From: a virus
Length of the DNA stretch: 64,000 bases
Virus record (IMG/VR): IMGVR_UViG_3300022848_000011
Span: 21,363-85,362 of that record
Direction: 5' to 3' (one strand)
A program made the translations under genes and the position numbers. A model generated the notes under the pieces. That model saw only the letters and a program-made list of their open reading frames with translations, had not been told where the DNA came from and ran no database searches. Within the stretch, counting starts at the first letter, position 1. Each line of letters starts with the position of its first letter. Below, one piece after another: positions 3,467-61,194 of this stretch.

Positions 3467-3475
3467 GGGAAATAA

Positions 3476-41614: not shown

Positions 41615-42541
41615 ATGGAAAAATTAATAGAAGCTCTCACTAAACTTCTGCCAGAAGATCAACTGCAACAAATCGATGAGATTAAAGCAGCCGTCGAGCA
41701 GGAGTTATCTTCTTATAAAGAAGAACTTGAGAAAGAATACAACGCAAAACTTGATGAAGCTTACGAGCAATTGCAATCTGAAATTAAAGAAACAGAAGAT
41801 ACTGCTACTAAAGGTTATCAAGAAGCCCACACAATTATTGAAGACCTTCGTAGAAGACTTCAAACACAACAAAATGAATTTGAAGCTACTATGCATGAAG
41901 AATATGAAGAAGCTTACAAAGTTATTGAAGAAGAAAGAAAGAAGAATGAAACCATTGAAGAAGACTTGTATTCAAGATTCGAAAATGATCTCACCGAAAT
42001 GAAGAGTTATATGGTTGAAAAAATCACTGACTATCTAGAATTCAAAAATATTGACATCTACGAAAATGCTCGAAGAGATATTTTGAATGATCCAAGATTG
42101 GTCGAACATAAAGTTGTTCTTGATAGAATTACTAATGAATTGTCCGATTATATTGACCATGATCAATTTGCTATTATCAATTCAAATAAGATTGAAGAAG
42201 CTACTAAAGAAAACGAAACACTTCGCTCAACCTTAAGAAGATTAGAAGCAAAGAATATTAACCTTGATACAAGAAACAAGAAACTCGATGAAGCTGTTCG
42301 TGGTCTTCAAAGTGTTATCAATGAAAGCAAAGTGAATGAAGAGAAAGAAAGAGAAGTATTGGCAGAGAATGTGTCGGGGAGAGGTAATACCGTTTCTAAA
42401 GATCGTTTAGAAATCGTCAAGGAATCAGTTAGTCCTACAGTCGAAACTGTAGAAGGAACCGATTCTACATTGTCAGAAGCATTCAATCAAGCTGACTTAG
42501 AGCAGATGAGAAGAATTGCCGGTGTGACAAACAAAAACTAA
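41615..42541 (+). CDS. Prohead scaffold protein (T4 gp22-type)
   Basis: This 308-residue protein is almost entirely Glu/Lys-rich helix (ALTKLLPEDQLQQIDEIKAA, a long coiled coil to ~residue 120 and again ~185-230), as expected for the main scaffold. The C-terminus (AFNQADLEQMRRIAGVTN) matches the short conserved C-terminal helix of gp22-like scaffolds that binds the capsid protein. It lies between protease and capsid genes, the canonical order, and should be degraded by the protease. Confidence 0.85.
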   Translation: MEKLIEALTKLLPEDQLQQIDEIKAAVEQELSSYKEELEKEYNAKLDEAYEQLQSEIKETEDTATKGYQEAHTIIEDLRRRLQTQQNEFEATMHEEYEEAYKVIEEERKKNETIEEDLYSRFENDLTEMKSYMVEKITDYLEFKNIDIYENARRDILNDPRLVEHKVVLDRITNELSDYIDHDQFAIINSNKIEEATKENETLRSTLRRLEAKNINLDTRNKKLDEAVRGLQSVINESKVNEEKEREVLAENVSGRGNTVSKDRLEIVKESVSPTVETVEGTDSTLSEAFNQADLEQMRRIAGVTNKN

Positions 42542-42563: not shown

Positions 42564-44012
42564 ATGTCTAATTTTAACGCAGAATTTTTTAATGAAGCTA
42601 CTAAGCTTGAAAGCAGTTGGAAACAGACTGGTCTTTTAGAGGGAATTGGAGACAGACACGAAAGACTCTGCACCTCAATTCTTCTCGAAAACCAGAGATT
42701 GGCTAACCTTTTGATGGAGAATGCTACAGGAACTGATGATATCGCTGGATTCAAAAGAATCAGCATTCCAATGGTTCGTAGAATTTATCCACAATTGATC
42801 GCAAACAAAATTGTTTCCGTTCAACCGCTATTAGGTCCTACTGGACTTGTATACTACCTACGCTTCCGTTATTCATCGAATAAGGGTGCTGTACGTGGTG
42901 GTGATAATAATGGTGGTTATCCTGGAGATGATGCCAATTCCTTGCAACAACTTGCAAGTGGTGATGGAAATCTTCACGAAATGTACTCTTCACAAGTTGT
43001 GGAGAATGAAACCACTAGCACTGATGCTGGTGATGACACACTCTCAGTCTATAGCCCACTTGAACACACTCCAATCCTTCCTGGTACCATCACTGGTACT
43101 GTTTATGATGGAACCGATGCTGTTCAAAACTTCATCGTTGATCAAAATGGTGCCTTCAACTTCAGTGACATTGGGGCTCCTTCAGCTAAGGTCACCGCTG
43201 CTACCCTTGATCTTACCAATGGTGAAATGACCTTCACTTGGAATGTTGCTCCTGGTCCTAACCACGTTGTTATGAGCTATGAGTATAACATGGAATGTAA
43301 TCAAGATATTCCTGAAATCAATCTTGGTGTCGAAGATGAATCAATCACAGCTAAAACTCGTAAGTTGAAAGCTGTTTGGTCATACGAAGCACAACAAGAT
43401 TTGAGATCACAACATAACTTGGATGCAGAAGCTGAATTAACTTCGGTTCTTGCCCAAGAAATTAATCTTGAAATTGACCGTGAAATCATCCGTGACCTTC
43501 GCCAAAATGCTGGTACTGTCTCCTCATGGGACTTCTCAACTTCACTTGGTGATACCATCAAGGAAAAGTATGAAGCTCTATATGTGAAACTTATGGAAGT
43601 TTCGGCTGTTGTTCACCGTAAAACCCTTCGTGGTGGTGCTAACTGGGTTATCTGTAGCCCTGAAGTGGCAAGTATATTTGAGACCGCAACCGCCGGATTT
43701 GCGCCAAGTCCAAGTGATACATTCACTTCGTCATTGGGTATCCAGTATGTCGGTACTGTGAATCAGAAGTTTAGATTGTACAAAGATCCATTGTTCCCGA
43801 CTTCACAAGTCCTTATGGGATATAAAGGAGAAAGTTATATGGATTCAGGATATTTCTTCTGCCCTTATGTTCCTTTAACTCAAACACCTACTGTGTTGGA
43901 CCCAGAATCGTTCTGTCCAAGAAAAGGTATATTGACACGTTATGGTAAGAAACTACTTAGAGAAGGTGCAAAATTTTATGCAAGGGTATCAATTCACAAT
44001 TATTCAATATAA
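42564..44012 (+). CDS. Major capsid protein (T4 gp23-type)
   Basis: This 482-residue HK97-fold protein contains the gp23 hallmark IPMVRRIYPQLIANKIVSVQPL (split: PMVRRIYPQLIANK then IVSVQPL) and LGPTGLVYYLRFRYS, equivalent to the T4 segment at the mature N-terminus. Upstream, LLMENATGTDD offers an L-M-E cleavage site for the gp21-type protease (inference). The C-terminal part (VICSPEVASIFETATAGF, FRLYKDPLFPTSQVLMGYKG) is conserved in the family. Codon use is clearly more C/GGT-rich than neighbours, consistent with the most abundant virion protein. A terminator follows at 44050. Confidence 0.92.
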   Translation: MSNFNAEFFNEATKLESSWKQTGLLEGIGDRHERLCTSILLENQRLANLLMENATGTDDIAGFKRISIPMVRRIYPQLIANKIVSVQPLLGPTGLVYYLRFRYSSNKGAVRGGDNNGGYPGDDANSLQQLASGDGNLHEMYSSQVVENETTSTDAGDDTLSVYSPLEHTPILPGTITGTVYDGTDAVQNFIVDQNGAFNFSDIGAPSAKVTAATLDLTNGEMTFTWNVAPGPNHVVMSYEYNMECNQDIPEINLGVEDESITAKTRKLKAVWSYEAQQDLRSQHNLDAEAELTSVLAQEINLEIDREIIRDLRQNAGTVSSWDFSTSLGDTIKEKYEALYVKLMEVSAVVHRKTLRGGANWVICSPEVASIFETATAGFAPSPSDTFTSSLGIQYVGTVNQKFRLYKDPLFPTSQVLMGYKGESYMDSGYFFCPYVPLTQTPTVLDPESFCPRKGILTRYGKKLLREGAKFYARVSIHNYSI

Positions 44013-48781: not shown

Positions 48782-49105
48782 ATGGAATCATTTAAAGTTT
48801 GGTTAGAAAAAAAAGATAATAAAAAACCATATAAAGGATATGATAAAGACGATAATCATCCTGAAGGTGGATTATCAAGAAAAAAAGCGAAAAGTTTAGG
48901 GATTCGGGCTGGAATTGACACTAAAGATGAAGCTAAGAAAAAAGGCGGTTTTGGTAAATTATCAGATAAAACACAAAGTCGAAGAAAAAGTTTTTGCAGT
49001 CGAATGTGTGGTCACAAAAAGAAAAACACTTCATCAAAAACTGCAAATGATCCCAAGAGTAAAATTAATGCATCATTAAGAGTTTGGGGATGTCGCTGTA
49101 ATTGA
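48782..49105 (+). CDS. Small basic phage protein with MxFKxWL tag (DUF6321-like)
   Basis: This 107-residue, very basic protein begins MESFKVWLEKKDNKK. The core GGLSRKKAKSLGIRAG (~29-44) and SRRKSFCSRMCGHKKK (~67-82) followed by RVWGCRC match a small phage protein type that I recall as DUF6321 (G-L-S-x-K-x-[AK], R-R-K-S-F-C-x-R-M). Function unknown; a DNA- or RNA-binding role is likely from charge. The N-terminal tag is shared with other genes in the window. It lies 11 nt before the next tagged gene. Confidence 0.55.
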   Translation: MESFKVWLEKKDNKKPYKGYDKDDNHPEGGLSRKKAKSLGIRAGIDTKDEAKKKGGFGKLSDKTQSRRKSFCSRMCGHKKKNTSSKTANDPKSKINASLRVWGCRCN

Positions 49106-49115
49106 GGTAATAATT

Positions 49116-49259
49116 ATGATCAAATTTAAAGAATGGTTAGAAGGTAGATGTTGGAAAGGATACGAACCAGTCCCAGGAAAGAAAGCTTATGCTGATGATT
49201 CTTGTCAACCAAAGAAAAAAGAAGACAAGAAAGAGAAAGGAAAAAAGAACAAAAAGTAA
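49116..49259 (+). CDS. 47-aa tagged peptide with CWKGY motif
   Basis: This small ORF encodes MIKFKEWLEGRCWKGYEPVP, followed by GKKAYADDSCQPKKK and a poly-Lys end. The ribosome site is TTGAGGTAAT. The pattern C-W-K-G-Y-x-x-x-G-x-K...D-S-C-Q-P is a widespread motif at the end of small proteins in large phages (C-W-x-G-Y-x-x-x-G-x-K, then N-C-V-P). It carries the MxFKxWL N-terminus of its neighbours. No function is known to me; a role as a packaged basic peptide is inference. Confidence 0.6.
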   Translation: MIKFKEWLEGRCWKGYEPVPGKKAYADDSCQPKKKEDKKEKGKKNKK

Positions 49260-49299
49260 TTTCGTATTAAATGTAATTGGCACATATTTTGCTTTTTAT

Positions 49300-49388
49300 C
49301 CATCGGCGGCGAGAAAACCCCTACTTTCGTAGAAAGTTTGGGTCGGTACTCCGACCCAAACCTCTTTAGGGTAGGGGATGAAACGCCG
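49300..49388 (+). mobile_element. IS200/IS605-like left-end hairpin, copy 1
   Basis: An outer stem (CGGCG with CGCCG) encloses an ACCCCTA/TAGGGG stem and an inner TTTGGGTCGG/CCGACCCAAA hairpin. A near copy lies at 63658-63748. Nested GC-rich palindromes with a GGCGGCGAGAAAACCC start are the kind of end structure seen in IS200/IS605 elements carrying tnpB. No transposase follows; a truncated ribbon-helix-helix ORF and another hairpin end are all that remain before 49695. The stretch 49389-49541 has no other feature. Confidence 0.55.
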
Positions 49389-49541
49389 TGAACTAAAATT
49401 ATCATAAAACATGACGCAAATTAACGCAAGATGAAGCTGATCTCATCAGACTCACTACCTCCAAATTTTCTTCCCCTAAAATTCGGATAAAAAATCAGTT
49501 TCTTTCTCTTAAAAATTATCCGTGGATACTATATAAGATGT

Positions 49542-49670
49542 ATGAATAATCCACAGAAAGAAAAACTGACAAAAGAAATTGTAGTGATGATACAACCATC
49601 ACTTTACGAACAATTCAAAGACAAATGTTCCGAGAACTATGTTTCAGTCAGTCAACTACCCCGACCCTAA
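49542..49670 (+). pseudogene. Truncated ribbon-helix-helix accessory protein of an IS605-type element
   Basis: A 42-codon frame encodes KLTKEIVVMIQPSLYEQFKD, then KCSENYVSVSQ, which reads like the first half of a CopG/Arc-type ribbon-helix-helix protein (strand, helix A, start of helix B). It then runs into the GC-rich hairpin at 49651 and stops (LPRP). The reading looks like a small regulator gene cut by insertion or deletion. Small RHH genes do accompany some IS605/IS1341 elements. The start position is uncertain by a few bases. Confidence 0.45.
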
Positions 49671-49695
49671 AGAGGTCGGGGCTTGTCATTTTTTA
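49651..49695. mobile_element. IS605/HEARO-type end hairpin
   Basis: CAACTACCCCGACC, loop CTAAA, then GGTCGGGGCTTG. This is nearly the reverse complement of the element ends at 53969-54003 and 63966-64000. On the minus strand it would be a tnpB-type right end finishing GTAGTTGAC; on the plus strand it resembles the 5' hairpin of IscB-associated (HEARO-like) RNA. With the T run after it (49689-49694) it may also act as a terminator in front of the sulfotransferase gene. Confidence 0.5.
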
Positions 49696-49789
49696 GTTTT
49701 TTCTTTCAAAAAGGAATGTTATCTTATTTTAAGGCACTTGTCAATACTATAATGTTTTAGTTAAATACTTTTAAGGAATTTTCTCAATA

Positions 49790-50626
49790 ATGAAAAAAAT
49801 AATCTACAATTCCAGTATTCCGAGATCAGGAAGTGAGCTTTTGCAAGTAATATTGCACCAAAATCCTCAAATCTACGGCTCTACTACTTCTCCTCTGCTG
49901 GAATACATGTTTGCGGCTAGGAGTAATTATAATTTGCCTGAAGTTCAAAGCCAAGATCCTGAATTAATGCAGAAATCTTTCCTTTCTATGTGTCAGGGGA
50001 TGCAACAAAGTTATTATTCCGCAATTACAAATAGACCTATTGTAATCGATAAAAATAGAGGATACTTGCATTATTATGAATGGATAGAGCAATTTAATCC
50101 AAACCCAAAGATGATTTGCATGGTTCGTGATCTTAGATCAATTGTTGCGTCTATGGAAAAGATTTTCCGTAAAAACAGGCACACCCCTGTAGGTCCAGAT
50201 AATCCATCAACAATGCAAAATTTAACAACAGAGCAAAGAGTCGAACACTGGTTGAATACTCAGCCAATTGGATTGGCTCTCCAAAGAACAAACGATTTGT
50301 TTCAAAGAAATTTAGACAAACATGTTTTATTTGTGAGATATGAAGACCTTTGTAATTTTCCTATCGATACTATGAAAAATGTTTATGATTATCTAGGCAT
50401 TGAGCTTTTTGATCACAACTTTAATTGTATAGAGAAAGAAGTAGTTGAATATGACTCGCACTTTGGTGTATATGGAAAACACAATATCCAAAGACAATTA
50501 GTTCCAGCAGAACTAGATAATTGGAAATCTTACTTATCTGAATTTTCTGGTAAACAAATTCAAGAAAGATTCCAGTGGTATTTTAATAACTTTTACAGTG
50601 AGCAAAAAAATGAGCTTTTTAAATGA
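49790..50626 (+). CDS. Sulfotransferase (PAPS-dependent type)
   Basis: This 278-residue protein shows the two PAPS-binding elements: the 5'-phosphosulfate loop SSIPRSGSELLQ (8-19) and the 3'-phosphate motif CMVRDLRSIVASM (110-122, R113 and S117). A LFVRYEDL strand (~182-189), typical of sulfotransferases (R-Y-E-D-[LM]), precedes IELFDHNF. It should transfer sulfate from PAPS to a sugar or protein, acting in the cytoplasm or on a virion protein. Sulfotransferases occur in several marine and giant phages. It precedes the collagen-like fibre gene, so fibre modification is an option; the target is unknown. Confidence 0.7.
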   Translation: MKKIIYNSSIPRSGSELLQVILHQNPQIYGSTTSPLLEYMFAARSNYNLPEVQSQDPELMQKSFLSMCQGMQQSYYSAITNRPIVIDKNRGYLHYYEWIEQFNPNPKMICMVRDLRSIVASMEKIFRKNRHTPVGPDNPSTMQNLTTEQRVEHWLNTQPIGLALQRTNDLFQRNLDKHVLFVRYEDLCNFPIDTMKNVYDYLGIELFDHNFNCIEKEVVEYDSHFGVYGKHNIQRQLVPAELDNWKSYLSEFSGKQIQERFQWYFNNFYSEQKNELFK

Positions 50627-50936
50627 TGATATAAAAGATGTTGGCCCTTCAGTAAGCAGAGCCGCAATTCAACAAAAGAATGAGGCGACCAGAGCCTTTC
50701 AACAAATGGTAAGAACTTATGAGAAAGGTTTAATAGATTTTTGGCAACATCCAAGATTTATTCCTCAAGAAATCGCTGATGAATTAGGTGTCGATGCCAG
50801 TGAAATGTTTCGTCTACACGGACTTCTTGCTCTAACTATTATGGAAGCGAATCCTACGCAAGTTTTGACTGATGTTGCATCTTTAGGGACTTTTGTAATT
50901 AATGAAGATGGAACAGTAACCGCAGCTAGGATTTGA
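50610..50936 (+). CDS. Small phage virion-associated protein
   Basis: ATG 50610 is chosen; the GTG at 50598 lies within the upstream gene. About 108 residues; the core FWQHPRFIPQEIADELGVDA (~residues 40-60) and FRLHGLLALTIMEANP match a widespread phage structural family I recognise by its P-[QE]-[ED]-I-A-[DA]-x-[LM]-G-x-[DN]-A and R-L-H-G-x-[LI] pattern. The family function is unknown to me. It overlaps the sulfotransferase end by 17 nt and is followed by the fibre gene, whose ribosome site lies in a hairpin. Confidence 0.55.
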   Translation: MSFLNDDIKDVGPSVSRAAIQQKNEATRAFQQMVRTYEKGLIDFWQHPRFIPQEIADELGVDASEMFRLHGLLALTIMEANPTQVLTDVASLGTFVINEDGTVTAARI

Positions 50937-50947
50937 AAATTAAAACA

Positions 50948-50991
50948 CCTCTTGTTGTTATATATATATATGAATACACAATAACAAGAGG
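50948..50991 (+). promoter_or_regulatory. Hairpin sequestering the fibre gene ribosome binding site
   Basis: CCTCTTGTTGTT (50948-50959) pairs with AATAACAAGAGG (50980-50991) as a 12-bp stem with one G-U pair and a 20-nt AT-rich loop. The 3' arm contains AAGAGG, the Shine-Dalgarno sequence 8 nt before ATG 51000, so folding would mask it. It is not followed by a T run, which speaks against a terminator. Confidence 0.6.
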
Positions 50992-50999
50992 TAATCGAG

Positions 51000-53372
51000 A
51001 TGTATGTTTGTGAAAGAAATAAAGATGGCACCTTAACTAAAAACAATTGGTTATTGGTAAAAGGTGCTTACGTTTCAGCAGTAACCGTTTGTAAAAACAA
51101 AATAGTTAGAACTGTTGTCCCAGATCCTAATGAATTGCCATTTCAAGAAAATCAAGGAAATCAAGGTCCACAAGGTCCACAAGGTCCACAAGGTCCACAA
51201 GGAACACAAGGTCCACAAGGTCCACAAGGAACACAAGGAACACAAGGAACACAAGGAACACAAGGAACACAAGGTCCACAAGGTCCACAAGGTCCACAAG
51301 GATTAGCAGTAGCAGCAGACTCTTATTGGACTTTAACTGATGGAAAGCTACATCAAGATACTGGAGTCAATGTAGGAATCGATACAGATGACCCTACTGA
51401 GCGTTTACACGTTGTTGGTAACATAAAACTAGATAACGGAAGGATTCTGCTGGGTTCTGATCCTAACCTACAGTCTATTGGAAGGGGAACTTTCGATACG
51501 AATACTGGTGGTCAAAACGGCGTATCTTTGTTTTGCACGGCAGGTTACGAGCTTAATTGGCAAACAGGTAGGCTTTCGAACTATAATGGTGCTTATCAAG
51601 ATTTCTATATTGATACGCCTAATTTATTTGTCAATCCTTCTGTTGGAATTGGTAACACAGCCAGCGGTGACTACTCAAGTGCAATGGGTCGTAGTAATTC
51701 AGCCAGCGGCAACACCTCAAGTGCATTTGGTTATTCCAACACAGCCAGCGGTGAAAACTCAAGTGCAGTTGGTTATTCCAACACAGCCAGCGGTGACCGT
51801 TCAAGTGCAGTTGGTTACCTCAACACAGCCAGCGTCAACTACTCAAGTGCAGTTGGTTACAGCAACACAGCCAGCGGTGACCGTTCAAGTGCATTTGGTT
51901 TCGGCAACACAGCCAGCGGTGAACGTTCAAGTGCAGTTGGTTACCGAGCAAACGCCGGGGCTTTGAACTCACTAGCGGTTGGAATAAATGTATTTACCCA
52001 TACTACTGGTCTAGCCTCAGTTAATTTTGGTGTGTTGAACAACAGCGTTGGTGGAACACTTAATGGCAGCACCGGCGATATAACCGGTACGATTACAGCC
52101 TTAACAACCCAAGGTAGGTTAACTACTGCGGTTGGGATCAGAAACAGCACTACGGGTAACCAATCAAGTGCAGTAGGTTACCTCAACACAGCCAGCGGTA
52201 CTGATTCAAGTGCAGTTGGTCACCAGAATACAGCCAGCGGCAACTACTCAAGTGCAGTAGGTTACCAGAATACAGCCAGCGGCAACTACTCAAGTGCAGT
52301 AGGTTACCAGAATACAGCCAGCGGTACTGATTCAAGTGCAGTTGGTCACCAGAATACAGCCAGCGGCAACTACTCAAGTGCAGTTGGTTACGGCAACACA
52401 GCCAGCGGTGACCGTTCAAGTGCAGTTGGTGTTACCAACACAGCCAGCGGTTACCAATCAAGTGCGGTTGGTCGCCTCAACACAGCCAGCGGTTACAACT
52501 CAAGTGCGGTTGGTCGCCTCAACACAGCCAGCGGTAGCCAATCAAGTGCATTTGGTTACCGAGCAAACGCCGGGGCTTTGAACTCACTAGCGGTTGGAAG
52601 AAGTGTATTTACCCATACTACTGGTCTAGCCTCAGTTAATTTTGGTGTGTTGAACAACAGCGTTGGTGGAACACTTAATGTCACCACCGGCGTTATAGCC
52701 GGTTCGATTACAGCCTTAACAACCCAAGGTAGGTTAACTACTGCGGTTGGGATCAGAAACAGCACTACGGGTAACCAATCAAGTGCAGTTGGTTACCTCA
52801 ACACAGCCAGCGGCAACAACTCAAGTGCAGTTGGTTACGACAACACAGCCAGCGGTGACCAATCAAGTGCAGTAGGTTACCAGAATACAGCCAGCGGTAC
52901 TGATTCAAGTGCAGTTGGTCACCAGAATACAGCCAGCGGCAACTACTTAAGTGCAGTAGGTTACCAGAATACAGCCAGCGGTGAACGTTCAAGTGCAGTT
53001 GGTACCTACAACATAGCCAGCGGTTTGCGTTCAAGTGCATTTGGTCACCTCAACACAGCCAGCGGTGACCGTTCAAGTGCATTTGGTTACCGAGCTAGAA
53101 CTACAATTGCCAATTCAACCGAAATAGGTTACTGGAGTAATAGTACAACTCGTGGCAGTGCTATGAGACTTCATGGTGCTACTGGTATGGCTTCTCATAC
53201 ACTGCAAAATCGAGCAACAGCTTACACTGACGGTGGATCAACAGCCGGTAGTGAAGCAGATGACAGTTTATCAAGAGGCATGTACTCGGTCAGAAGAGAC
53301 GGAGACGTTATACTGATCGATATAAATATTGCTGGAACTATTAAAACACTAAGTCTAGGAACAGCAATCTAA
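51000..53372 (+). CDS. Collagen-like and YadA-head-like trimeric tail fibre
   Basis: This 790-residue protein has an N-terminal ~50-residue domain, then ~16 collagen-type G-x-y triplets (GPQ and GTQ; ~51150-51302). From ~51645 to 53100 it consists of ~15-residue YadA-type head repeats of the form S-S-A-V-G-x-x-N-T-A-S-G-x-x, split by two copies of a longer unit ([30 protein letters not shown]). The C-terminus (~730-790) ends [18 protein letters not shown]. Collagen triplets plus YadA repeats are trimeric, left-handed beta-roll adhesins; in phages they form fibres. No chaperone domain is seen. Translation may be controlled by the upstream hairpin. A terminator follows at 53403. Confidence 0.8.
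51150..51302 (+). repeat. Collagen-like 9-bp repeat tract
   Basis: Tandem 9-bp units encode G-P-Q and G-T-Q. The tract is GC-richer than the surrounding sequence, and all units keep the frame. Length changes by multiples of 9 bp are possible without frameshift. Confidence 0.9.
51645..53100 (+). repeat. YadA-type ~45-bp repeat array with an internal ~230-bp duplication
   Basis: About 25 tandem ~42-48-bp units (each with the cores aacacagccagcgg and tcaagtgcagt) encode the head repeats. The segment at 51938-52166 is almost identical to 52553-52782 (differences INVF/RSVF and [20 protein letters not shown]), showing a recent internal duplication. It resembles CRISPR spacing but has no unique spacers. 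Confidence 0.9.
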
Positions 53373-53402
53373 CATTTTGGGTTTATAGCTGCGGTCCAGA
53401 TT

Positions 53403-53437
53403 AAAAGCCAATGAGTTAAAATCTCATTGGCTTTTTC
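53403..53437 (+). terminator. Intrinsic terminator after fibre gene
   Basis: AAAAGCCAATGAG pairs with CTCATTGGCTTTT around a 7-nt loop, followed by TTC. A 13-bp stem lies 30 nt after the fibre stop. The 5' end of the tnpB remnant starts ~85 nt further on. Confidence 0.85.
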
Positions 53438-53520
53438 GTTGAATCAATAAATTCTTGAAGATTTTCTGGAACAATTACAACATTTGTATCTTAATCGTCC
53501 TCAATCAATGCAGCAATGCT

Positions 53521-53607
53521 ATGAATGCCGACCTTAACGCTGCTCGGAATATTGTTACTAATCTTAGACCTAAGTGTAGAGTCTATGCTTGCAAAAGTGA
53601 GTCCTGA
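53521..53607 (+). pseudogene. tnpB remnant A (C-terminal tip)
   Basis: A short frame reads NADLNAARNIVTNLRPKCRV, the D-x-N-A-A-x-N-I motif of the third RuvC element of TnpB. It stops at 53605. The preceding codons (53470-53520) contain no stop but little clear similarity. It overlaps remnant B in another frame, so the region looks like two collapsed copies. Confidence 0.55.
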
Positions 53608-53968
53608 TGAACGAGATGAAGCACGTTGGAAAGAACGCAAGCGTCATCGAGACATACAAGATTGTGGTTGGTCAAGTTTTGTCAACAAGTTGAAATACAA
53701 GGCTGAATGGTATGGACGAGAGTTCATACAAGTCAGTCGTTGGTTTCCAAGTTCTCAATTGTGTAATAATTGCAATTACCAAAACAAGGAATTAAAGCCA
53801 ATAGACAGAGAATGGACCTGTTGGAATTGTTGGGAACACAATGATCGTGATTTTAATTCAGCAAAGAACATTTTGGCTGAAGGATTAAGAATAAGAACCT
53901 CTGGAACAGAGGGGATAGCCTATTGTCCTGATGTAAGACCCGCTTTTAGTGGGCTATTGGTTGGATAG
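53590..53968 (+). pseudogene. tnpB remnant B (IS200/IS605 RNA-guided nuclease, C-terminal third)
   Basis: About 125 codons encode the TnpB C-terminal region: RHRDIQDCGWSSFVNKLKYK, AEWYGREFIQVSRWFPSSQL, the zinc finger C-x2-C...C-x2-C (LCNNCNYQN, EWTCWNCWEH), then DRDFNSAKNI (third RuvC acidic motif) and RTSGTEGIAY...CPDVRP. The N-terminal two thirds, including the first catalytic Asp, are missing. TnpB is an RNA-guided nuclease guided by an RNA from the element's right end, which is intact here at 53969-54003. The gene is dead, but its end structure is not. Confidence 0.75.
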
Positions 53969-54003
53969 GAAGCCCCGACCCTAAAGGGTCGTGGGTAGTT
54001 CAC
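53969..54003 (+). mobile_element. IS200/IS605 right end (reRNA 3' boundary)
   Basis: The sequence AAGCCCCGACC, loop, GGTCGTGGGTAGTTCAC directly after the tnpB stop is the typical right-end hairpin and terminal TTCAC of this element class. In intact systems the guide of the reRNA is the ~16-20 nt just past the end, here TAGTAATTACTGGAAC, which lies in the broken hsp20 gene. Confidence 0.65.
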
Positions 54004-54215
54004 TAGTAATTACTGGAACAATGCCTGAATACGAGAATAGGGAATATTTAACAAGAGGCAGAAAGTCAGAATCATTCACACGTACTATTAAACTATCTGA
54101 GAAGTTAGGGGAATTCAAAGAACCTAGTAGTACAAGTTTGGTGAATGGAGTTTTGAAGATTCAGTGGAGACCGGAGGACAGAATAGATAAAAAAATTAAC
54201 ATAAAAATCGAGTAA
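54004..54215 (+). pseudogene. Small heat-shock protein (Hsp20) 3' fragment interrupted by the element
   Basis: The frame continues directly from the element end: LVITGTMPEYENREYLTRG, then SFTRTIKLSEKLG, SLVNGVLKIQWRPEDR, KKINIKIE. This is the C-terminal half of the Hsp20 alpha-crystallin domain (L-x-[IV]-x-G, S-F-x-R-x-x-x-L, N-G-V-L-x-I). The N-terminal half is not found upstream of the element within the window. Hsp20 genes occur in T4-like phages. A start at ATG 54021 could make a short fragment, but the domain would be incomplete. Confidence 0.65.
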
Positions 54216-54234
54216 AAAGAGTTGGTTTCTGCTG

Positions 54235-54273
54235 AAACGCAATGTGTGATTTATTTCCACATTGCGTTTTTTT
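54235..54273 (+). terminator. Intrinsic terminator
   Basis: AAACGCAATGTG pairs with CACATTGCGTTT around an 11-nt loop, then more Ts. It closes the broken hsp20 unit 20 nt after its stop. Confidence 0.85.
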
Positions 54274-54295
54274 ATTAATAAGAATAAATAAATGT

Positions 54296-55045
54296 ATGAT
54301 AAATACATTGATTTGTTCTTACAAAAGTGGCGATGTTTTGCCATACACTTTGGGTCAACTAGTGGAATGTGATTATATTAATCGCATTTTGGTTACTGAT
54401 GGTCCTCATTTGGGTAACATTAAACCTGGATTTAAAACAGAAAAACCTACGGTTAAAGAAGTTGTTGATTCTTTTTCTACACAAAAGATACATTATGAAT
54501 ATAGTGACGACTGTGAAATTCGTGGTGAGAAAAATAATCGAATCTTAAAGAATGTTTTGGATTGTCAATGGATACTTTGTGTAGACTCTGATGAAGTTTA
54601 CCATGAAAACGATTTGGTTAAATTGGCGGAATTTTTAAAGAATGATCCTGAATGGGATCGATATGAAATTAAAACAATTAATCCATTTCCTGATTTTCAT
54701 CATTGTTTTGAGATTCCTGATTGGAAACCAAGATTGTATCGTTGGTATGAAGGTGCTCAATGTCATCCAAAAGCAGATCGATTGCATCAATACGTGAATC
54801 ATTCTAGTCAAAAATACAAACCTAATGCAGTTCATGGGATGGCTAGACTTCCAAGTGAAATAGCTCAGATATATCATTTGAATGCTTTGCGGGACAATTC
54901 AAAGGGTGATAGAAGAGTTAGGTATATTTCAGATGATACAATTACTTGGAAAGGTGGTCATCAAAAACACACATCTAAAATTTTACCATTAGATATTTCA
55001 TGTTCTCCTAAGTGCATTAGAGAAAGCAAGAAAGATTCTTTATAA
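54296..55045 (+). CDS. Glycosyltransferase, GT2/GT-A-like
   Basis: The ATG at 54296 is chosen; the longer frame starts inside the terminator. The 249-residue protein begins MINTLICSYKSGDVLPYTLG, the N-terminal strand of GT-A enzymes. An acidic motif WILCVDSDEVYHENDL (~93-108; D-S-D) matches the DxD metal-binding site, followed by DWKPRLYRWYEGAQCHPKAD, resembling a GT2 acceptor region. It is shorter than most GT2 enzymes. It could glycosylate host or virion glycans. It stands alone after a terminator, 13 nt before the ART-like gene. Confidence 0.6.
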   Translation: MINTLICSYKSGDVLPYTLGQLVECDYINRILVTDGPHLGNIKPGFKTEKPTVKEVVDSFSTQKIHYEYSDDCEIRGEKNNRILKNVLDCQWILCVDSDEVYHENDLVKLAEFLKNDPEWDRYEIKTINPFPDFHHCFEIPDWKPRLYRWYEGAQCHPKADRLHQYVNHSSQKYKPNAVHGMARLPSEIAQIYHLNALRDNSKGDRRVRYISDDTITWKGGHQKHTSKILPLDISCSPKCIRESKKDSL

Positions 55046-55058
55046 CATATATAACTCT

Positions 55059-55592
55059 ATGAATTTTAAAACATATCTTAATGAAAATATTTTTGGAGAT
55101 GACTTCGATATTACTAAAATACGGGCACAACTAAAAGCAAGAGGCAAAATGGTTAGCGTAAAAAAGAAATCGAAAAAGAGTTTCATTGAAATTTATCATG
55201 GATTCAACCAAGATCCAAAATTTTTTAATTACGAATTTGACCCTATTAAATCAGAGCAAGGTTTGTTGTGGTTCACTCATAAATATATTAGAGTTTATAA
55301 TCCAATAGAATATGCTACTGGTAAAGGGGATTATCTTTTAACTATAAAGTTGCCAACTACATTACATTGTAATGTAGTGACATATGAAAATGGTGAATCC
55401 GAGGAAAAAATTGGTGATGAATTAAGAGATATGGCTAATCCTTATGAGAACTGTCGTTATTATTTAGATTTTGATAAGTTGATAGAGTTACCCCAAGGAT
55501 GGTTTTTTACATATAAGCATGAAAAATTTATTGGAACGAACAAGCAATTTAAGGCAAATCCTGGTGACATCACGAAAAATCATTCAATTTAA
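55059..55592 (+). CDS. Tagged protein with possible ADP-ribosyltransferase-like fold
   Basis: This 177-residue protein begins MNFKTYLNENIFGDD, an M-x-F-K-x-Y-L tag followed by L-N-E, a match to the [LI]-x-E site of gp21-type proteases. The core FIEIYHGFNQDPKFFNYEFD, then GLLWFTHKYIRVYNPIEYATG and DYLLTIKLP, resembles the order of ART folds (x-Y-H-[GS], F-F-T, A-x-x-Y-A, V-x-L). The catalytic Glu is not evident. T4 packages an ART (Alt) with a cleavable N-terminal peptide, so the parallel is suggestive. Convergent with the PcfJ-like gene (overlap 23 nt). Confidence 0.4.
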   Translation: MNFKTYLNENIFGDDFDITKIRAQLKARGKMVSVKKKSKKSFIEIYHGFNQDPKFFNYEFDPIKSEQGLLWFTHKYIRVYNPIEYATGKGDYLLTIKLPTTLHCNVVTYENGESEEKIGDELRDMANPYENCRYYLDFDKLIELPQGWFFTYKHEKFIGTNKQFKANPGDITKNHSI

Positions 55593-56667
55593 TAAAATGA
55601 ATTCCATTTTGTAGTAGACTTTCTTTTTCGTAGATGGGTAGGAGAAACATAGATTTTAATGCAGATTTGAAATTTTTGATTTGTTTCAAATCTGCAACTT
55701 TTTTTGCATCAATTTCTGATATAATCCAATTTCCATCTGTGTAGAATACTTGTGTTTGTTTATTAAATTTATATATTTTTTTATAAATATCCGAGTCTAT
55801 TATTTCTATGTTACTGATTAATCCTTTGAATTTATATTTTAGTTTCAATAAATCAGATTTACTTTTAACATAATCAAATTCAGCATTAAGCACTGTTGCA
55901 AGATCTAAAATATAATCGTGATATTTTTCTTTTACTTCTGTGGAAGCCGCTCCTTGATCACCACTAATTCTTTTTTCATTTGGCGAGTATGTGACCATAA
56001 CATGAGGTTTATTACCTTTGCTGAAAAGAGCTAAAATTGTTTTATCTTTATCATAGGACATTAAACCCGCACTTCCACAATTTTTCATTTGTGTTCCTAG
56101 CAAACCACATTTTGGTCCTACATTTATCCATTTATACCCATTTGGGTATGTTTTGAGAGGTTTAGTTTCTTTAAAAACTCTTTGTTTGTCATATTTATCA
56201 GATGCTTCATGGAAGGTCATTTTTTTATAAGGAGCTAAATTAGTTAATTTTCCACTCTTTATGTCTTGAATAACAACATTTCTAAAGAATGTGTTTTTTG
56301 AAAACATATCTTTCAGTTCTTCTAATAATTCTTTTCTTTGGTCTTCTAGGTCATAATCACTGTAATTTTCTTCATCTTCATAGTCCATATCAAAATATTT
56401 TAAGGCTTTAATATAATTGTCTTTGTTAAATGTAGAATCATAGAAATATGCAAGTTCATATAAGGAGTTTTCAGATCCATTAATTGGTCTAATTTGCCTG
56501 AACCAATTGTCATTTTTACCGTTATAATATTCTTTAAACCATCTTGCAATCAAGGTTGCGTGTTTAGGGAAATCGATATAAAATAATCTTGCTATAGTTT
56601 CTGGGTAGCCTAATCCTGTTATTATTTCTTTTGATTCTTTTATTAAAATCCAATTCTTAAAATTCAT
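55570..56667 (-). CDS. PcfJ-like protein with MNFKNW tag
   Basis: ATG 56667 (MNFKNWILIKESKE) is preferred because it places the tag at the N-terminus; two codons upstream (56673) is another ATG. 365 residues. The core INVGPKCGLLGTQMKNCGS (~190-208), with GNKPHVMVTYSPNEKRISGD following, resembles PcfJ-type proteins of large phages and plasmids (G-x-x-M-x-[NH]-C-[GV], then V-M-T, then a G-x-x-N pattern). PcfJ is a conjugation-linked protein of unclear biochemistry. The start is basic and the rest mixed alpha/beta. Convergent with the ART-like gene. Confidence 0.45.
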   Translation of the reverse strand: MNFKNWILIKESKEIITGLGYPETIARLFYIDFPKHATLIARWFKEYYNGKNDNWFRQIRPINGSENSLYELAYFYDSTFNKDNYIKALKYFDMDYEDEENYSDYDLEDQRKELLEELKDMFSKNTFFRNVVIQDIKSGKLTNLAPYKKMTFHEASDKYDKQRVFKETKPLKTYPNGYKWINVGPKCGLLGTQMKNCGSAGLMSYDKDKTILALFSKGNKPHVMVTYSPNEKRISGDQGAASTEVKEKYHDYILDLATVLNAEFDYVKSKSDLLKLKYKFKGLISNIEIIDSDIYKKIYKFNKQTQVFYTDGNWIISEIDAKKVADLKQIKNFKSALKSMFLLPIYEKESLLQNGIHFIKLNDFS

Positions 56668-56730
56668 AATCATTTACCAGTTAATTGTACATATATAGTT
56701 TGTTCATTGACATAAACTAACGTAATTATA

Positions 56731-57741
56731 ATGAAACATATAATAATAGCTTCTGATGCTTGGGAGCCTCAAATAAATGGTGTTGTCAGAACTTTAAACA
56801 ACACCGTAGACATTCTCCGAAGAATTGGTCATAAGGTATCTGTGATAAATCCTTATTTATTCAAGACAATTCCTGTACCGTTTTATAAAGAAATACCTAT
56901 AGCGTTATGCTATAATTTTGATAAAATCAATAATGTGATTGAAGATATAGATAATACTTATTTCCATATAGCAACAGAAGGTAATGTTGGTAGATTATTA
57001 AGAAGATTTTGTCATACTAATAATTATAGGTATACGACTGCATATCATACAATGTTTCCTGAATATCTTCAAAAAATCCTTAGAATACCTCCTGAATGGA
57101 GTTATTATTATTTTAAGAGATTTCATCAAAGATCATCATGTGTCATGGTCCCAAACAATACATTAATTCAGAAACTAAATGAGTATGGTTTTAATAATGT
57201 AAATTTATGGTCAAGAGGTGTTGATATTGATGTTTTTCATCCTTGTTATCGTCCTCCAAACGAAAAGCCTGTTTTAGTGTTCGTAGGGAGAGTTTCCCAT
57301 GAAAAAAATATAGAAGAATTTCTTAAAATTGAGGGCAATTACACAAAGAAAATCATTGGTGATGGTCCTTTAAGACATAAATTAGAAAATCAGTATCCAG
57401 ATGTAATTTTCACAGGTTATAAACAAGGATATGATTTAAAGAAGGAATATTGTAGTGCTGATGTGTTTGTATTCCCTAGCAAGACGGATACATTTGGTTT
57501 AGTGATGTTAGAGGCTTTAGCTTGTGGTGTTCCTGTAGCAGCATTTCCAGTTAATGCATCATTAGACATATTTAAAAATCAGTCGGGTGTTGGTTTTTTG
57601 AATAATAATTTAAAAATCGCAATAGATACTGCAATCAAAGAAGGTGACAAAGTAAAAAGTAGACAATTTGCACTTAATCATTCATGGGAAAAATGGACAG
57701 ATGTTTTCTCGAATTATCTTGTAAAGGCTAAAAATGAATAG
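56731..57741 (+). CDS. GT4-family glycolipid glycosyltransferase (Agt/SQD2-like)
   Basis: This 336-residue GT-B enzyme has an N-terminal DAWEPQINGVVRTL motif (residues 9-22), RGVDIDVFHP (162-171), GRVSHEKN (186-193), GDGPLR (210-215) and the donor-binding SADVFVFPSKTDTFGLVMLE (242-261). The T-D-T-F-G-L-V-[ML]-L-E-A signature is typical of diacylglycerol-glucosyl or sulfoquinovosyl transferases such as Agt and SQD2. It overlaps the following metallophosphoesterase gene by 8 nt. In marine bacteria agt and plcP lie adjacent and together swap phospholipids for glycolipids under phosphate starvation. The same pair here suggests membrane-lipid remodelling, an inference from family and synteny. Confidence 0.7.
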   Translation: MKHIIIASDAWEPQINGVVRTLNNTVDILRRIGHKVSVINPYLFKTIPVPFYKEIPIALCYNFDKINNVIEDIDNTYFHIATEGNVGRLLRRFCHTNNYRYTTAYHTMFPEYLQKILRIPPEWSYYYFKRFHQRSSCVMVPNNTLIQKLNEYGFNNVNLWSRGVDIDVFHPCYRPPNEKPVLVFVGRVSHEKNIEEFLKIEGNYTKKIIGDGPLRHKLENQYPDVIFTGYKQGYDLKKEYCSADVFVFPSKTDTFGLVMLEALACGVPVAAFPVNASLDIFKNQSGVGFLNNNLKIAIDTAIKEGDKVKSRQFALNHSWEKWTDVFSNYLVKAKNE

Positions 57742-58510
57742 AATCAAAACTGTATTTGTTTCTGATATTCATTTAGGATCTAAATATTCTAAAACAAAAG
57801 AATTTTATACTTTTTTAAGATGGGTTGATAAACAGAAACCAGAGAATGTTTATATAGTCGGAGATTTTATTGATGGATGGAAATTGAAAAGAAATTGGTA
57901 CTGGAGTCCTGAATCAAATTTAATACTAAGAAAGTTATTTAGTTTAGCAAAACATGGATCAAAGATATTTTATGTAGCTGGGAATCATGACGAATTTTTG
58001 CGTCATTTTATTGATGAGATTTCAATTTCTGATTTTGCTGGCATTAAAATTGATGACGAGTTCATTTATAAAACAGTTAAAGGAGATAGATTATTAGTAA
58101 TACATGGAGACCAATTTGATGCTGCAATTCAATATGATTTAATTGGAAATAAATTTTGGTTTTTACTAGGAGATTACAGTTATGATTTTTTAATTTCTTT
58201 AAATAATTTTATAAACAAAATTAGAAATATCTTTCATTTAAAGAAGTGGTCTTTAAGTAAGAGTATTAAATTTAAATTTAAACAGGCTGTCAAATTCATT
58301 AGTGATTACGAAGTAATCTTGAGTAATTATGCTAAAGAAAAAAAATGCAATGGTGTTGTGACAGGTCATATCCATTGTCCTGACATCAAAGTAATTAATG
58401 GAATTGATTACTATAATTGTGGAGACTGGGTAGAGTCAAATACAGCTTTAATTGAATATTATGATGGTAGTTTTAAGATATTTTATTTTGATGAAGAATT
58501 AATGTTTTAA
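57734..58510 (+). CDS. Calcineurin-type phosphoesterase, PlcP/LpxH-like
   Basis: This 258-residue protein has the metallophosphoesterase motifs in order: VSDIHLGS (D11, H13), VGDFIDGW (D44), GNHDE (83-87), HGDQFD (124-129) and GHIHCP (211-216). The HGDQFD spacing and a hydrophobic middle are as in the UDP-2,3-diacylglucosamine hydrolase (LpxH) family, to which phospholipase PlcP also belongs. PlcP splits phosphatidylcholine or phosphatidylethanolamine to diacylglycerol, the substrate of Agt encoded just upstream. The two genes overlap (ATGAATAG region) and are probably one transcript. It converges with the amidoligase gene, 12-nt overlap. Enzyme choice between LpxH and PlcP cannot be settled from sequence alone. 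Confidence 0.7.
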   Translation: MNRIKTVFVSDIHLGSKYSKTKEFYTFLRWVDKQKPENVYIVGDFIDGWKLKRNWYWSPESNLILRKLFSLAKHGSKIFYVAGNHDEFLRHFIDEISISDFAGIKIDDEFIYKTVKGDRLLVIHGDQFDAAIQYDLIGNKFWFLLGDYSYDFLISLNNFINKIRNIFHLKKWSLSKSIKFKFKQAVKFISDYEVILSNYAKEKKCNGVVTGHIHCPDIKVINGIDYYNCGDWVESNTALIEYYDGSFKIFYFDEELMF

Positions 58511-59806
58511 TTTTTTTATTACTTTCAACATCTTTTGTTTGTATATTGAATTTAAAGAAGACCATAATTGATTGACTGTGTATTTTTTAAATTCCTTATC
58601 ATTTGTAAGATTGAAATTATTCATTAATTGTTTCTTAACTGAAAGGTCTCCTGAAATAAATAAAATCCACAGTAAACCATCTACCTGTTGATGTCCATAA
58701 CGTCTTAAAAAATTTCTTTCTATTAAATCTGCTGGTAAATTAGCTTGTCTTAATTCGGATGGAGATTCTTGAGATTGTTTTGAATTTTTATTTCTTGTTA
58801 TTTTAACATTGCTTCCTGGCATTCTTGTAAGAGTAAAGAAATTTCCTTTGAACTCAATCTTTATTTGTTTTCTAGATTGTGCAATATTGGGCAATATCAA
58901 ATAATACTGAATATATTCAAAGAATTTGTTGATATCCTTCAGAATTTCAGAAGAAAGGTATCTAAATTCAACAGTTCCTAATTTACCAAACGATCTTAGG
59001 TTGGTTCCATGATATTTTTTGGTATTAATTGCTAAATTTTTAATATCTTCATCACCCACAATTACTTCTTGTTTATTTTTAATTAATTCGTCGATCATAT
59101 ACCAAATTTGTTTATGATTCATAGTTCTGAGGGCTGCCCAATCTTCAAAATTACGATTACGACCTGCATCTTTTTTTAGCTGTTCTTCATCGGCTAACGT
59201 AGTCATTGCTAGTAGATCGAATCCATTTGTATTACTAGGCATCCCTATATGAACGTGTGCAGAACCCTCTCCTGAGAGGGTTTCGTGTTTAAGTTTATCA
59301 AATATTTTTCTAAGTATAGGAAAATCTTTTGTAGTGCAGATAGGAGTTCTTAATTCTATAAATCCTGCATCAAAGCCAATGCCAAATTCTGTTGCTGTGG
59401 CTTCATCAGGTTTAATCAATGAACCAAGAGATTTTATAAATGAAATATATTCATCTATTTTGTTTTGGTGATCTCTACTATTTACACCACTTGATTTTAT
59501 ATTGTATTTAGTTAATGCTACATCTCTGGAGATTCTACTTATGAAGTCATTCAATTTTTCATCATATTCTTCTTCATCCATTTTATCAGGAGATTTACCT
59601 ATTATTTTTAATGATGCTAAAAAATCCTTATATACATCACTACTGTTACGAAGAAGCAGGTCTAGATCATCATTTGAATTATTATTTGCTGGCTTAAATT
59701 CAATTTCTACACCAAAGGTTCCTGGTTGATATTTTTTCAATCCTTTCTTAATGGTTTTGGTTTTGTCGAAATTAACAAATTCAAGGTATCTTTTAAAGTT
59801 TATCAT
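58499..59806 (-). CDS. Amidoligase-family protein with MINFKRYL tag
   Basis: This 435-residue protein begins MINFKRYLEFVNF. Amidoligase (COOH-NH2 ligase, glutamine-synthetase-like fold) motifs are present: FGVEIEF (31-37, metal-binding E34, E36), FIELRTPI (~149-156), AHVHIGMP (183-190) and GTVEFRYLSS (277-286, with R282). These catalyse ATP-dependent amide-bond formation between a carboxyl and an amine. Phage and bacterial examples often lie in surface-modification or peptide-tagging contexts. The N-terminal tag is shared with other genes. C-terminal residues (~340-435) are helical and of unknown role. Confidence 0.6.
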   Translation of the reverse strand: MINFKRYLEFVNFDKTKTIKKGLKKYQPGTFGVEIEFKPANNNSNDDLDLLLRNSSDVYKDFLASLKIIGKSPDKMDEEEYDEKLNDFISRISRDVALTKYNIKSSGVNSRDHQNKIDEYISFIKSLGSLIKPDEATATEFGIGFDAGFIELRTPICTTKDFPILRKIFDKLKHETLSGEGSAHVHIGMPSNTNGFDLLAMTTLADEEQLKKDAGRNRNFEDWAALRTMNHKQIWYMIDELIKNKQEVIVGDEDIKNLAINTKKYHGTNLRSFGKLGTVEFRYLSSEILKDINKFFEYIQYYLILPNIAQSRKQIKIEFKGNFFTLTRMPGSNVKITRNKNSKQSQESPSELRQANLPADLIERNFLRRYGHQQVDGLLWILFISGDLSVKKQLMNNFNLTNDKEFKKYTVNQLWSSLNSIYKQKMLKVIKKLKH

Positions 59807-59873
59807 AATTTATATATTAATTCAAAATAATAAAAATTAGTTATGTTTAAGTAACTATCAAATTATTTATAAA

Positions 59874-60350
59874 TTACGAAACCGTATAATCATATCCTGT
59901 TCGTCCATCAAACGAGAATGGCAAAATACACTTAGTGCCCGGTAGTGTAACGAAATAATCATATGGGGCGGGGAAATCAGAAAATTGGGGCGCAGTGATT
60001 TCTATATGCCAATTGTTGTTGAAATTACATGGATAAATGATGACCTGAATGATCTCGACGACTCCCCAATTTTCTAGATCAACAAGTTTAACAGGGGGGA
60101 TATTATCTAGACGATATTCATTGTCGATTGGCACCCAAGGTACCTCGACTGAGTATGCGACACCATTATATGTCCATGAAAATGTAAGAATATCAGGTAA
60201 TAATCCTCCACAACATGGAACAGAGCAGCAGTTACAGCATTCGTCCCAACAATCGGTTGATTGAGCTTGGACGTATTGCTGTTTTTTTTGCAACAAACGT
60301 TTTTGAATCTTTTTTTTATTTAATTTTATTACAAATTCTCTATTGGACAT
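59874..60350 (-). CDS. Cys-rich protein with beta-sandwich domain
   Basis: This 158-residue protein has basic helix-forming N-terminal ~25 residues, then a dense cysteine cluster (CWDECCNCCSVPCCGG, residues ~34-49) suggesting metal binding or disulfide cross-links. The rest (FSWTYNGVAYSVEVPWVP, IIQVIIYPCNFNNNWHIEI) looks like a small beta-sandwich. The codon use is less AT-rich than in the neighbours. No family recognised. A virion surface or metal-binding role is conceivable. Confidence 0.5.
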   Translation of the reverse strand: MSNREFVIKLNKKKIQKRLLQKKQQYVQAQSTDCWDECCNCCSVPCCGGLLPDILTFSWTYNGVAYSVEVPWVPIDNEYRLDNIPPVKLVDLENWGVVEIIQVIIYPCNFNNNWHIEITAPQFSDFPAPYDYFVTLPGTKCILPFSFDGRTGYDYTVS

Positions 60351-60470
60351 GTTTTATATAGGAATAAAAACTAGCTTTTTTTTTGAAATAAAGGTTTTAA
60401 ATATTTTATTCATTTCACAAAATATTATACTATAACTATATATTTTAAACTACACTTATAATACGATAAA

Positions 60471-60743
60471 ATGAATTTCAAAGAATATTTAATGGATATA
60501 GATAACTTAACAGAGAAGAAGTTAACTACTTATAAGATAATATGGTTTATTCCTAGTGAAAGTAACTCTGGTTCTGTGTATACTACATTTTTAGAAGGAT
60601 TTTCACAACAAGAAGTTCAAAAAGAATTCAAAAATTCAGATCGAATGTGGGTACTTGGGAAGAATAATAAGAAAAAATTGGTTCATTTTGGCGGGGAGAA
60701 TCCAGTCATCACCTCTATTACTCCGATTAATCTAAAAAAATGA
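60471..60743 (+). CDS. Small tagged protein (MNFKEYL)
   Basis: This 90-residue protein starts MNFKEYLMDIDNLTEKKLTT; the tag is followed by L-T-E, a candidate gp21-type cleavage motif. The rest (YKIIWFIPSESNSGSVYTTF, SQQEVQKEFKNSDRMWVLGK) looks like a small alpha/beta fold. No family recognised. The upstream 120 bp is a gene-free AT-rich stretch that may hold its promoter. Confidence 0.5.
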   Translation: MNFKEYLMDIDNLTEKKLTTYKIIWFIPSESNSGSVYTTFLEGFSQQEVQKEFKNSDRMWVLGKNNKKKLVHFGGENPVITSITPINLKK

Positions 60744-60793
60744 TTATATTTCAACTATTTAATAGTAGATAACTGTTAAATATAGAGGTTATA

Positions 60794-60976
60794 ATGCAAA
60801 ACAAAAACAAGCCTAATAAATTCACCCAAACTTCTAATCTTACTCGAAAACAGACTTGGTTGTTTTATCACGAAGGGTTTGGTTCTGAATTATCTTTAGA
60901 ACCATCTAAAGAAGAACCTCAAAAAAAGATGCCTTTAGATATTGAATTCAATCAAGAGTTAGACAATAATTTCTAG
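60794..60976 (+). CDS. Small hypothetical protein
   Basis: 60 residues, Asn/Lys-rich at the N-terminus (MQNKNKPNKFTQTSN) and acidic at the end (PLDIEFNQELDNNF), with the ribosome site TAGAGGTTATA. It overlaps the convergent gene by 4 nt. No function suggested. Confidence 0.45.
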   Translation: MQNKNKPNKFTQTSNLTRKQTWLFYHEGFGSELSLEPSKEEPQKKMPLDIEFNQELDNNF

Positions 60977-61194
60977 TAAGAATCTTTAATTGCTTTGTCT
61001 ATTTTTGCAGAACGATTACCTTTTCCATCTTTTTTCTGTTTATGGGCACCTGTACGAAAAGACGGTTTTTGATGTCCTGCCCCGCTTTTAATTTCACCTG
61101 CTTTGATGATAAACGAATTATCATCTTTTTTGGGCTGAGGTGTTAGTTGTGGTTTCTTGGTCATTTCTTCATACCATTCTGTGAATTTCTTCAT
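60973..61194 (-). CDS. Small basic tagged protein (MKKFTEWYEE)
   Basis: This 73-residue basic protein begins MKKFTEWYEEMTKKPQ, a variant of the F-K-x-[WY]-L tag. The body is Lys/Gln/Gly-rich (KSGAGHQKPSFRTGAHKQKK), without hydrophobic core, so probably disordered and nucleic-acid binding. It lies 8 nt downstream of the 61203-61409 gene. Confidence 0.45.
   Translation of the reverse strand: MKKFTEWYEEMTKKPQLTPQPKKDDNSFIIKAGEIKSGAGHQKPSFRTGAHKQKKDGKGNRSAKIDKAIKDSY

Follow-up and report, generated by a model that had tools for sequence, protein, structure and literature searches.

A probable T4-type capsid targeting sequence on many unrelated proteins of an uncultured phage lineage

The locus analysed here raises the question why a series of otherwise dissimilar phage genes should begin with nearly the same few residues. 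The genes lie in a stretch of 64,000 nucleotides, the window, which comprises bases 21,363-85,362 of an IMG/VR virus contig of 85,362 bp (IMGVR_UViG_3300022848_000011, labelled G000) with a GC content of 32%. A sequence-only reading of the window had quoted seven such N-termini and a looser one at 12707, and had likened them to the peptide that sends internal proteins of phage T4 into the head. All eight N-termini were present at these starts, the three minus-strand genes having been quoted by their 5' ends. Our analysis strongly supports the proposed module on many cargoes: the shared N-terminus is very probably a capsid targeting sequence (CTS) of the T4 kind, whose cargo would be packaged in the head and delivered with the DNA. 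Signals of this kind are already known from T4; the contig belongs to a variant lineage in which the probable T4-type CTS would serve an unusually large and varied cargo.

Gene starts were taken from a simple caller that used codon score, start codon and Shine-Dalgarno match and was blind to the motif. The expression ^M.{0,3}F[KRT].[WYF][LIM] matched 10 of the 87 N-termini of the contig and 1 of 449 internal methionine positions, and shuffling of residues 2-20 (300 trials) yielded a mean of 0.09 matches with a maximum of 1. A position-specific scoring matrix (PSSM) was built from relatives only, with T4 and the source contig excluded from its support. It placed 11 of the 87 contig genes above the cut at 99.9% of the null, where 0.1 were expected. 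The tag was enriched at residues 2-8, and neither at internal methionines nor at residues 41-44. The seven tagged genes of the window are the following:

48782..49105, plus strand: MESFKVWLEKK..., 107 amino acids (aa), DUF6321 domain (Pfam E 3.2e-7); PSSM 12.5, p 3.9e-4; CTAAATA starts 32 nt upstream
49116..49259, plus strand: MIKFKEWLEGR..., lysine-rich, 47 aa; PSSM 10.5, p 5.5e-4
55059..55592, plus strand: MNFKTYLNE/N..., possible ADP-ribosyltransferase (ART), 177 aa; PSSM 11.1; TATATAA 4 nt ahead of ATG
55570..56667, minus strand: MNFKNWILIKE/S..., 365 aa; PSSM 16.2
58499..59806, minus strand: MINFKRYLEF..., amidoligase, 435 aa; PSSM 14.8; Amidoligase_2 3.7e-6, PHROG amidoligase 8e-9; TATATAA 3 nt ahead of ATG
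60471..60743, plus strand: MNFKEYLMDIDNLTE/K..., 90 aa; PSSM 9.7; LTE present; TATAATA 7-8 nt ahead of ATG
60973..61194, minus strand: MKKFTEWYEEM..., 73 aa; PSSM 10.4; CTAAATA starts 38 nt upstream

Outside the window, the contig holds four further strong tags:

G000 2789-3526, minus strand: MNFKEFLYK
G000 3523-4815 (L003), minus strand: MINFKVFLEE, tRNA nucleotidyltransferase, PolyA_pol head domain E 1.6e-18
G000 4828-5643, minus strand: MKFKKWLKERMLAEA
G000 7823-8314, plus strand: MENSFKRFLSL

Two genes of the window are weak candidates, the second of which sits between the portal gene and the next gene of the head region:

12707..12976, plus strand: MSNFRDWELDQ..., 89 aa; PSSM 7.6, p 1.9e-3
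38562..38819, minus strand: MLEFTNWVKLYENE..., 85 aa; PSSM 8.2, p 1.3e-3

The relatives showed the enrichment as well. Together with ten further contigs of the gp23-related lineage, whole or nearly so, the comparison covered 11 contigs with 2113 genes, and [FY]-x-x-[FWY]-[LIM] stood near the start of 130 genes versus 7 in the control position. Other aromatic spacings (gaps 0, 1 and 3-7) gave 11-17 genes each, near background; only gap 2 (i, i+3) was enriched, and therefore one spacing is selected. Clustering of 147 candidate proteins without their tags left 114 as singletons and put the rest in 14 small clusters; when 84 tagged proteins were aligned, only Mx(x)FKxxLE was conserved. The mature parts behind the tag are, as judged by these comparisons, unrelated to one another, as had been claimed for the window. 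GC-richer relatives (43-49% GC) showed the tag as well, and the relative G003 carried about 14 tagged genes on one strand at 83.6-98.3 kb (L118), the strict list containing 13 of these. A conserved family of 339-351 aa that opens MSIPFEIFLEW (window 21932-) or MAIEFERFLDW fits a loose expression and was excluded, together with a few other matches, because the whole proteins are conserved.

In T4, packaging of the internal protein IPIII requires its first ten residues, MKTYQEFIAE, of which mutagenesis assigned residues 4 and 7 to targeting and residues 8 and 10 to processing; the protease gp21, which acts on head and core proteins, cleaves after L/I-x-E (PMC9026906). The aromatic/aromatic/aliphatic spacing of the lineage tag equals Y4, F7 and I8 of IPIII, and E10 has a counterpart in many tags. 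IPII shares the ten residues with IPIII, and IPI itself opens MKTFKEF. Like the CTS of IPI, IPII and IPIII and the propeptides of Alt and gp24, the tag is N-terminal, comprises about ten residues, precedes unrelated mature proteins and occurs in a genome with a gp21-type protease. The lineage differs in its consensus, F-[KR]-x-[WF]-L with a preference for W, in the number of tagged genes (about 10-24 in most contigs versus about 3-5 in T4), in the many enzymes among the cargo, in a single run of about 13 tagged genes in G003, and in [LI]xE sites that stand in two registers or are missing. Applied to the T4 genes, the lineage matrix ranked gp61.1 (MKTFKEFIKE) first and IPI, an annotated internal virion protein, third; in lambda and Listeria phage LIS04, zero genes exceeded the 99.9% null. 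The uncharacterised T4 gp61.1 (18966-19130), which opens MKTFKEFIKED, is itself a candidate CTS-bearing protein.

The window had been described as encoding a gp21-type protease, and this identification held. Its T4-type head module comprises four genes:

35944..38499, plus strand: portal protein of the T4 gp20 family with intein (Portal_T4 1.3e-71, Intein_splicing 3.2e-9, phrog_213)
40864..41613, plus strand: prohead protease, T4 gp21-type (phrog_207 head maturation protease, E 1.5e-47)
41615..42541, plus strand: presumed scaffold or core protein in the gp22 position, between protease and major capsid protein; charged, coiled-looking sequence
42564..44012, plus strand: major capsid protein, gp23 family (phrog_138, E 2.3e-83), N-terminus MSNFNAEFFNEA and LLENQ...LLMEN

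The presumed core protein is assigned by position, a PHROG search having given no match. Identity of the capsid protein was 73-79% to its counterparts at 80 IMG/VR loci and, over most of its length, about 27-31% to cyanophage gp23. The same phage thus encodes the gp21-type protease and the gp23 head that accompany a CTS. In the capsid proteins of most relatives, FLNEA near residues 6-10 and a subsequent LLENQRLMNE were kept; both fit a hydrophobic-x-E protease as predicted cuts. The intein in the portal gene (CIAGNTMIST...VVMHNC) spans residues ~101-336.

Several tags had been said to run into L-x-E. LNE at 55059 and LTE at 60471 bear this out, and [LI]xE was present within 16 residues of the tag in 74 of 130 cases. 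Internal windows had it in 12%, and comparison with composition shuffles gave z 6.7; most sites behind the tag read W-L-x-E or W-L-x-[LI]-x-E.

Direct virion data come from cyanophages. The S-CREM2 report lists a S-adenosylmethionine (SAM) hydrolase, an APH-like kinase, a cytidylyltransferase/NMNAT and Cas9 among the non-structural proteins of the virion proteome, and its authors left undecided whether such proteins are contaminants (PMC10665884). The SAM hydrolase opens MKDFDSFLEE, the kinase MKRFDAFLTEE and the NMNAT MKNFSSFLTEA, and F..[FWY][LIM] at residues 2-5 occurred in exactly these three of the 203 S-CREM2 genes. The strict motif was carried by 3 of 28 non-structural proteins detected by mass spectrometry (MS), 0 of 24 structural and 0 of 151 undetected proteins (Fisher 3.5e-3), and a looser pattern by 5 of 28 versus 4 of 151 undetected (p = 5e-3). 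Tags were also borne by the MS-detected NMNAT of S-SM1 (T4-GC190, MKKFSAFLNEA; PMC3037559) and of S-SCSM1 (MKSFLQFLKEA; PMC9602691) and by the S-CRM01 kinase (MISFDQFLSE), whose virion detection is reported in PMC10665884. These cyanophage enzymes carry the same tag, and SAM lyase is found among the lineage cargo as well; cyanophages differ in having few tagged genes per genome (3-7 in S-CREM2, about 2 in S-SSM4) and a motif that more often reads F-[SDA]-x-F-L-[TN]-E-A. The co-occurrence of tag and virion detection is support, short of proof, for packaging. The available portions of the cyanophage virion papers made no mention of a targeting sequence, and within the collection of papers searched, 'capsid targeting sequence' and cyanophages were joined only in one T4 review. 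As a separate observation, the Cas9-like nuclease reported in S-CREM2 virions (OR473000 7704-10313, minus strand; L316) contains RFASFMAEA about 18 residues in and is a possible packaged Cas9 effector.

The start regions of the tagged genes carried a second signature. In the relatives, [CA]TAAATA stood 4-5 bases ahead of ATG in many tagged genes. In G003, TAAATA lay within 18 nt of 14 of 19 tagged starts versus 1 of 157 others, and this single other gene reads MNNSKTFSFKEWFF. At the gene level in ten contigs, the core was near ATG in 24 of 125 tagged versus 42 of 1791 untagged genes (p 2.6e-13), and a scan from the DNA side found that 25 of 82 core-bearing starts open a strict tag, versus 6.5% of all genes. 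A Shine-Dalgarno match preceded 1 of the 24 tagged genes with the core versus 1050 of 1749 untagged genes without it. The untagged core-bearing genes included baseplate and tail-fibre homologs, assigned because they resemble window genes 5450 and 8795 and not by profile. The strict TATAAATA within 100 nt was not enriched (2/138 tagged versus 16/1881); only the core, at a constant and short spacing, was enriched. The 7-mer [CA]ATAAAT proved unsuitable as a control: it caught tagged genes too because it overlaps ATAAATA. In T4, the late promoter TATAAATA occupies positions -13 to -6, and the CTAAATA used by Aeh1 begins at -12 (PMC1524935); the transcript would therefore start at or beside the AUG. 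Leaderless late mRNAs are thus probable for the core-bearing tagged genes of the relatives, a reading arrived at after the fact.

Three other explanations were weighed against the CTS. The tag might be a docking peptide for the replication or late-transcription machinery or for a host protein, the proteins acting in the producing cell; many cargoes are enzymes or transcription factors (sigma-70, PolyA_pol, GNAT, kinases) that make sense without packaging. We regard this as quite improbable, given that the key positions are those that mutagenesis defined in the T4 CTS, that tagged enzymes were detected in purified cyanophage virions and that late-promoter cores precede many tagged genes. Very improbable, too, is a virion signal for the tail tube or baseplate instead of the head interior: MS of whole virions is blind to compartment, but the T4 precedent is head-specific and the hydrophobic-x-E sites behind the tag suit a head protease. 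Chance or composition, favoured by an AT-rich contig in which F, K, N and I codons abound, and common descent of the genes in place of an added module are rejected as extremely unlikely, as neither shuffles nor internal methionine controls reproduce the tag, one spacing alone is enriched, the tag recurs in the GC-richer relatives and the mature parts are unrelated.

Several findings weigh against the targeting sequence itself. The promoter signature is weak in the window, with a TATA-like core near ATG in 3 of 11 tagged genes; five contig genes have such a core near the start, three of them tagged (55059, 59806, 60471). About 43-50% of the tags have no nearby [LI]xE, including 4 of the 7 in the window. 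In T4, targeting is independent of the cleavage residue. The virion MS support comes from distant relatives only (capsid protein ~30% identity), in small numbers and with an expression that was loosened at the K position. Further hypothetical proteins that MS detected in S-CREM2 lack the tag, which therefore is not the sole packaging route. No recognisable tag was found on the kinase homolog of S-N03, and none in any upstream frame of the SAM lyase homolog of G003.

For the T4-type CTS, we infer from T4 that the tag binds the core, is cleaved and lets its cargo be injected; what each cargo does is likewise an inference. Tagged proteins would be made late in infection, and the two aromatics (F and W/F/Y), three positions apart on the short N-terminal peptide, would bind the prohead core. 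A gp23-type shell would form around the core and enclose the tagged protein, and the gp21-type protease would clip many tags after the nearby hydrophobic-x-E. The cargo would remain in the head, enter the next host with the DNA and act ahead of phage gene expression in counter-restriction, host modification, tRNA repair or early transcription.

The domains detected among the tagged proteins are diverse. Pfam matches included PolyA_pol, SAM lyase, ArdC-N, ART-PolyVal, PARP, Zeta toxin/AAA kinase, GNAT, sigma-70 regions 2 and 4, S-adenosylmethionine decarboxylase, DnaJ, FMN reductase, GP88 and Amidoligase_2. Several of these could plausibly serve in the first minutes, either against restriction or in taking over the host; a PADLOC scan of the tagged proteins gave just five weak, scattered matches. 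Regarding the three window proteins singled out by the sequence-only reading, the amidoligase was confirmed (Amidoligase_2 27.4 bits, curated cut-off 22), with no homologs in 24 related records. The ART-like protein at 55059 retained its conserved YHG and GLxWFT motif in an alignment with homologs from two relatives (G009, G007) that are tagged too, and ART/PARP domains occur in tagged proteins of relatives; a Pfam search returned weak matches only and no ART profile, and the structure model (predicted local distance difference test, pLDDT, 58) had no fold match. The label PcfJ-like, which concerns the protein of 55570..56667, was not borne out: zero profiles matched, no Pfam family being found at E <= 0.1, and the model (pLDDT 33) was too poor for use. 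Exact-stretch IMG/VR searches with 55059, 56667 and the tRNA nucleotidyltransferase gave zero relatives, for which an alignment had to serve as query.

The clearest case of a tag under selection is the tRNA nucleotidyltransferase at G000 3523-4815, whose catalytic part aligns with solved CCA-adding enzymes. F4 and E9 were kept by six orthologs (~29-37% identity to the contig protein), and the rest of the N-terminal extension varied. In 53 of 79 related IMG/VR proteins (L237-L315) the tag was recognised by a loose expression, a descriptive count given that starts could be picked by tag and some loci are near-identical; most of the others were near-matches, e.g. MSLFSRYFRIREES. The extension is missing from the tRNA nucleotidyltransferases of other phages, where most of the listed matches start only near residue 51-69. 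The family is thus a candidate virion-packaged tRNA-end enzyme and, if so, could, at entry, repair tRNAs of host or phage that defence toxins have damaged.

Two known systems offer comparisons. A short N-terminal signal sends the anti-restriction protein DarB of phage P1 into the head, as proposed for the lineage tag, whereas the Dar proteins have no consensus common to them; DarB has been detected in heads that lack tails (PMC9024508). Polyvalent proteins, whose ArdC-N and ART effector domains are predicted to be injected (Iyer et al. 2017, PMC5512222), overlap with the lineage cargo in these domains; they combine many domains in one large polypeptide, whereas the lineage mostly has one domain per small tagged protein.

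It is quite conceivable, if not yet probable, that this uncultured lineage of the T4 superfamily maintains a large, fast-changing arsenal of effectors delivered by the virion. Each would be encoded by a stand-alone cassette composed of a late-promoter core immediately ahead of the start codon (with a predicted leaderless late mRNA), a CTS and a swappable effector domain, the arsenal including a conserved packaged tRNA nucleotidyltransferase. The linkage of core and tag hints at a way in which such genes could travel as complete units. Should the tag mark packaged proteins throughout the T4 superfamily, effectors that are injected would be predictable from sequence alone, and the eleven contigs would supply more than 100 candidates, mostly without known function. 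Among them are new anti-defence candidates for the first minutes of infection, namely SAM lyase, ArdC-like protein, ART, tRNA-end enzyme and sigma factors. The tag would also be a ready explanation for the enzymes in cyanophage virion proteomics.

The window genes between the tagged ones include four without a tag, namely a sulfotransferase (49790-50626), a group 1 glycosyltransferase (56731-57741), a metallophosphatase (57734-58510) and a LAGLIDADG endonuclease (61887-62462). A near-DNA search of a phage collection gave zero matches. In Flavobacterium phage immuto (W05, MW353176), at least two proteins, at 1803 and 118588, open with MENFDLKKFLVEN, possibly a different targeting-tag family in a Bacteroidetes T4-like phage. 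Finally, a 770-aa protein of the window (18229-20541, minus strand) opens with MGNFIKNIVNSLDFNHLNEM and has a TATAAATA core directly before its ATG. It contains an LNE at which cleavage is possible, and may likewise be packaged, by means of a signal that diverges from the tag.

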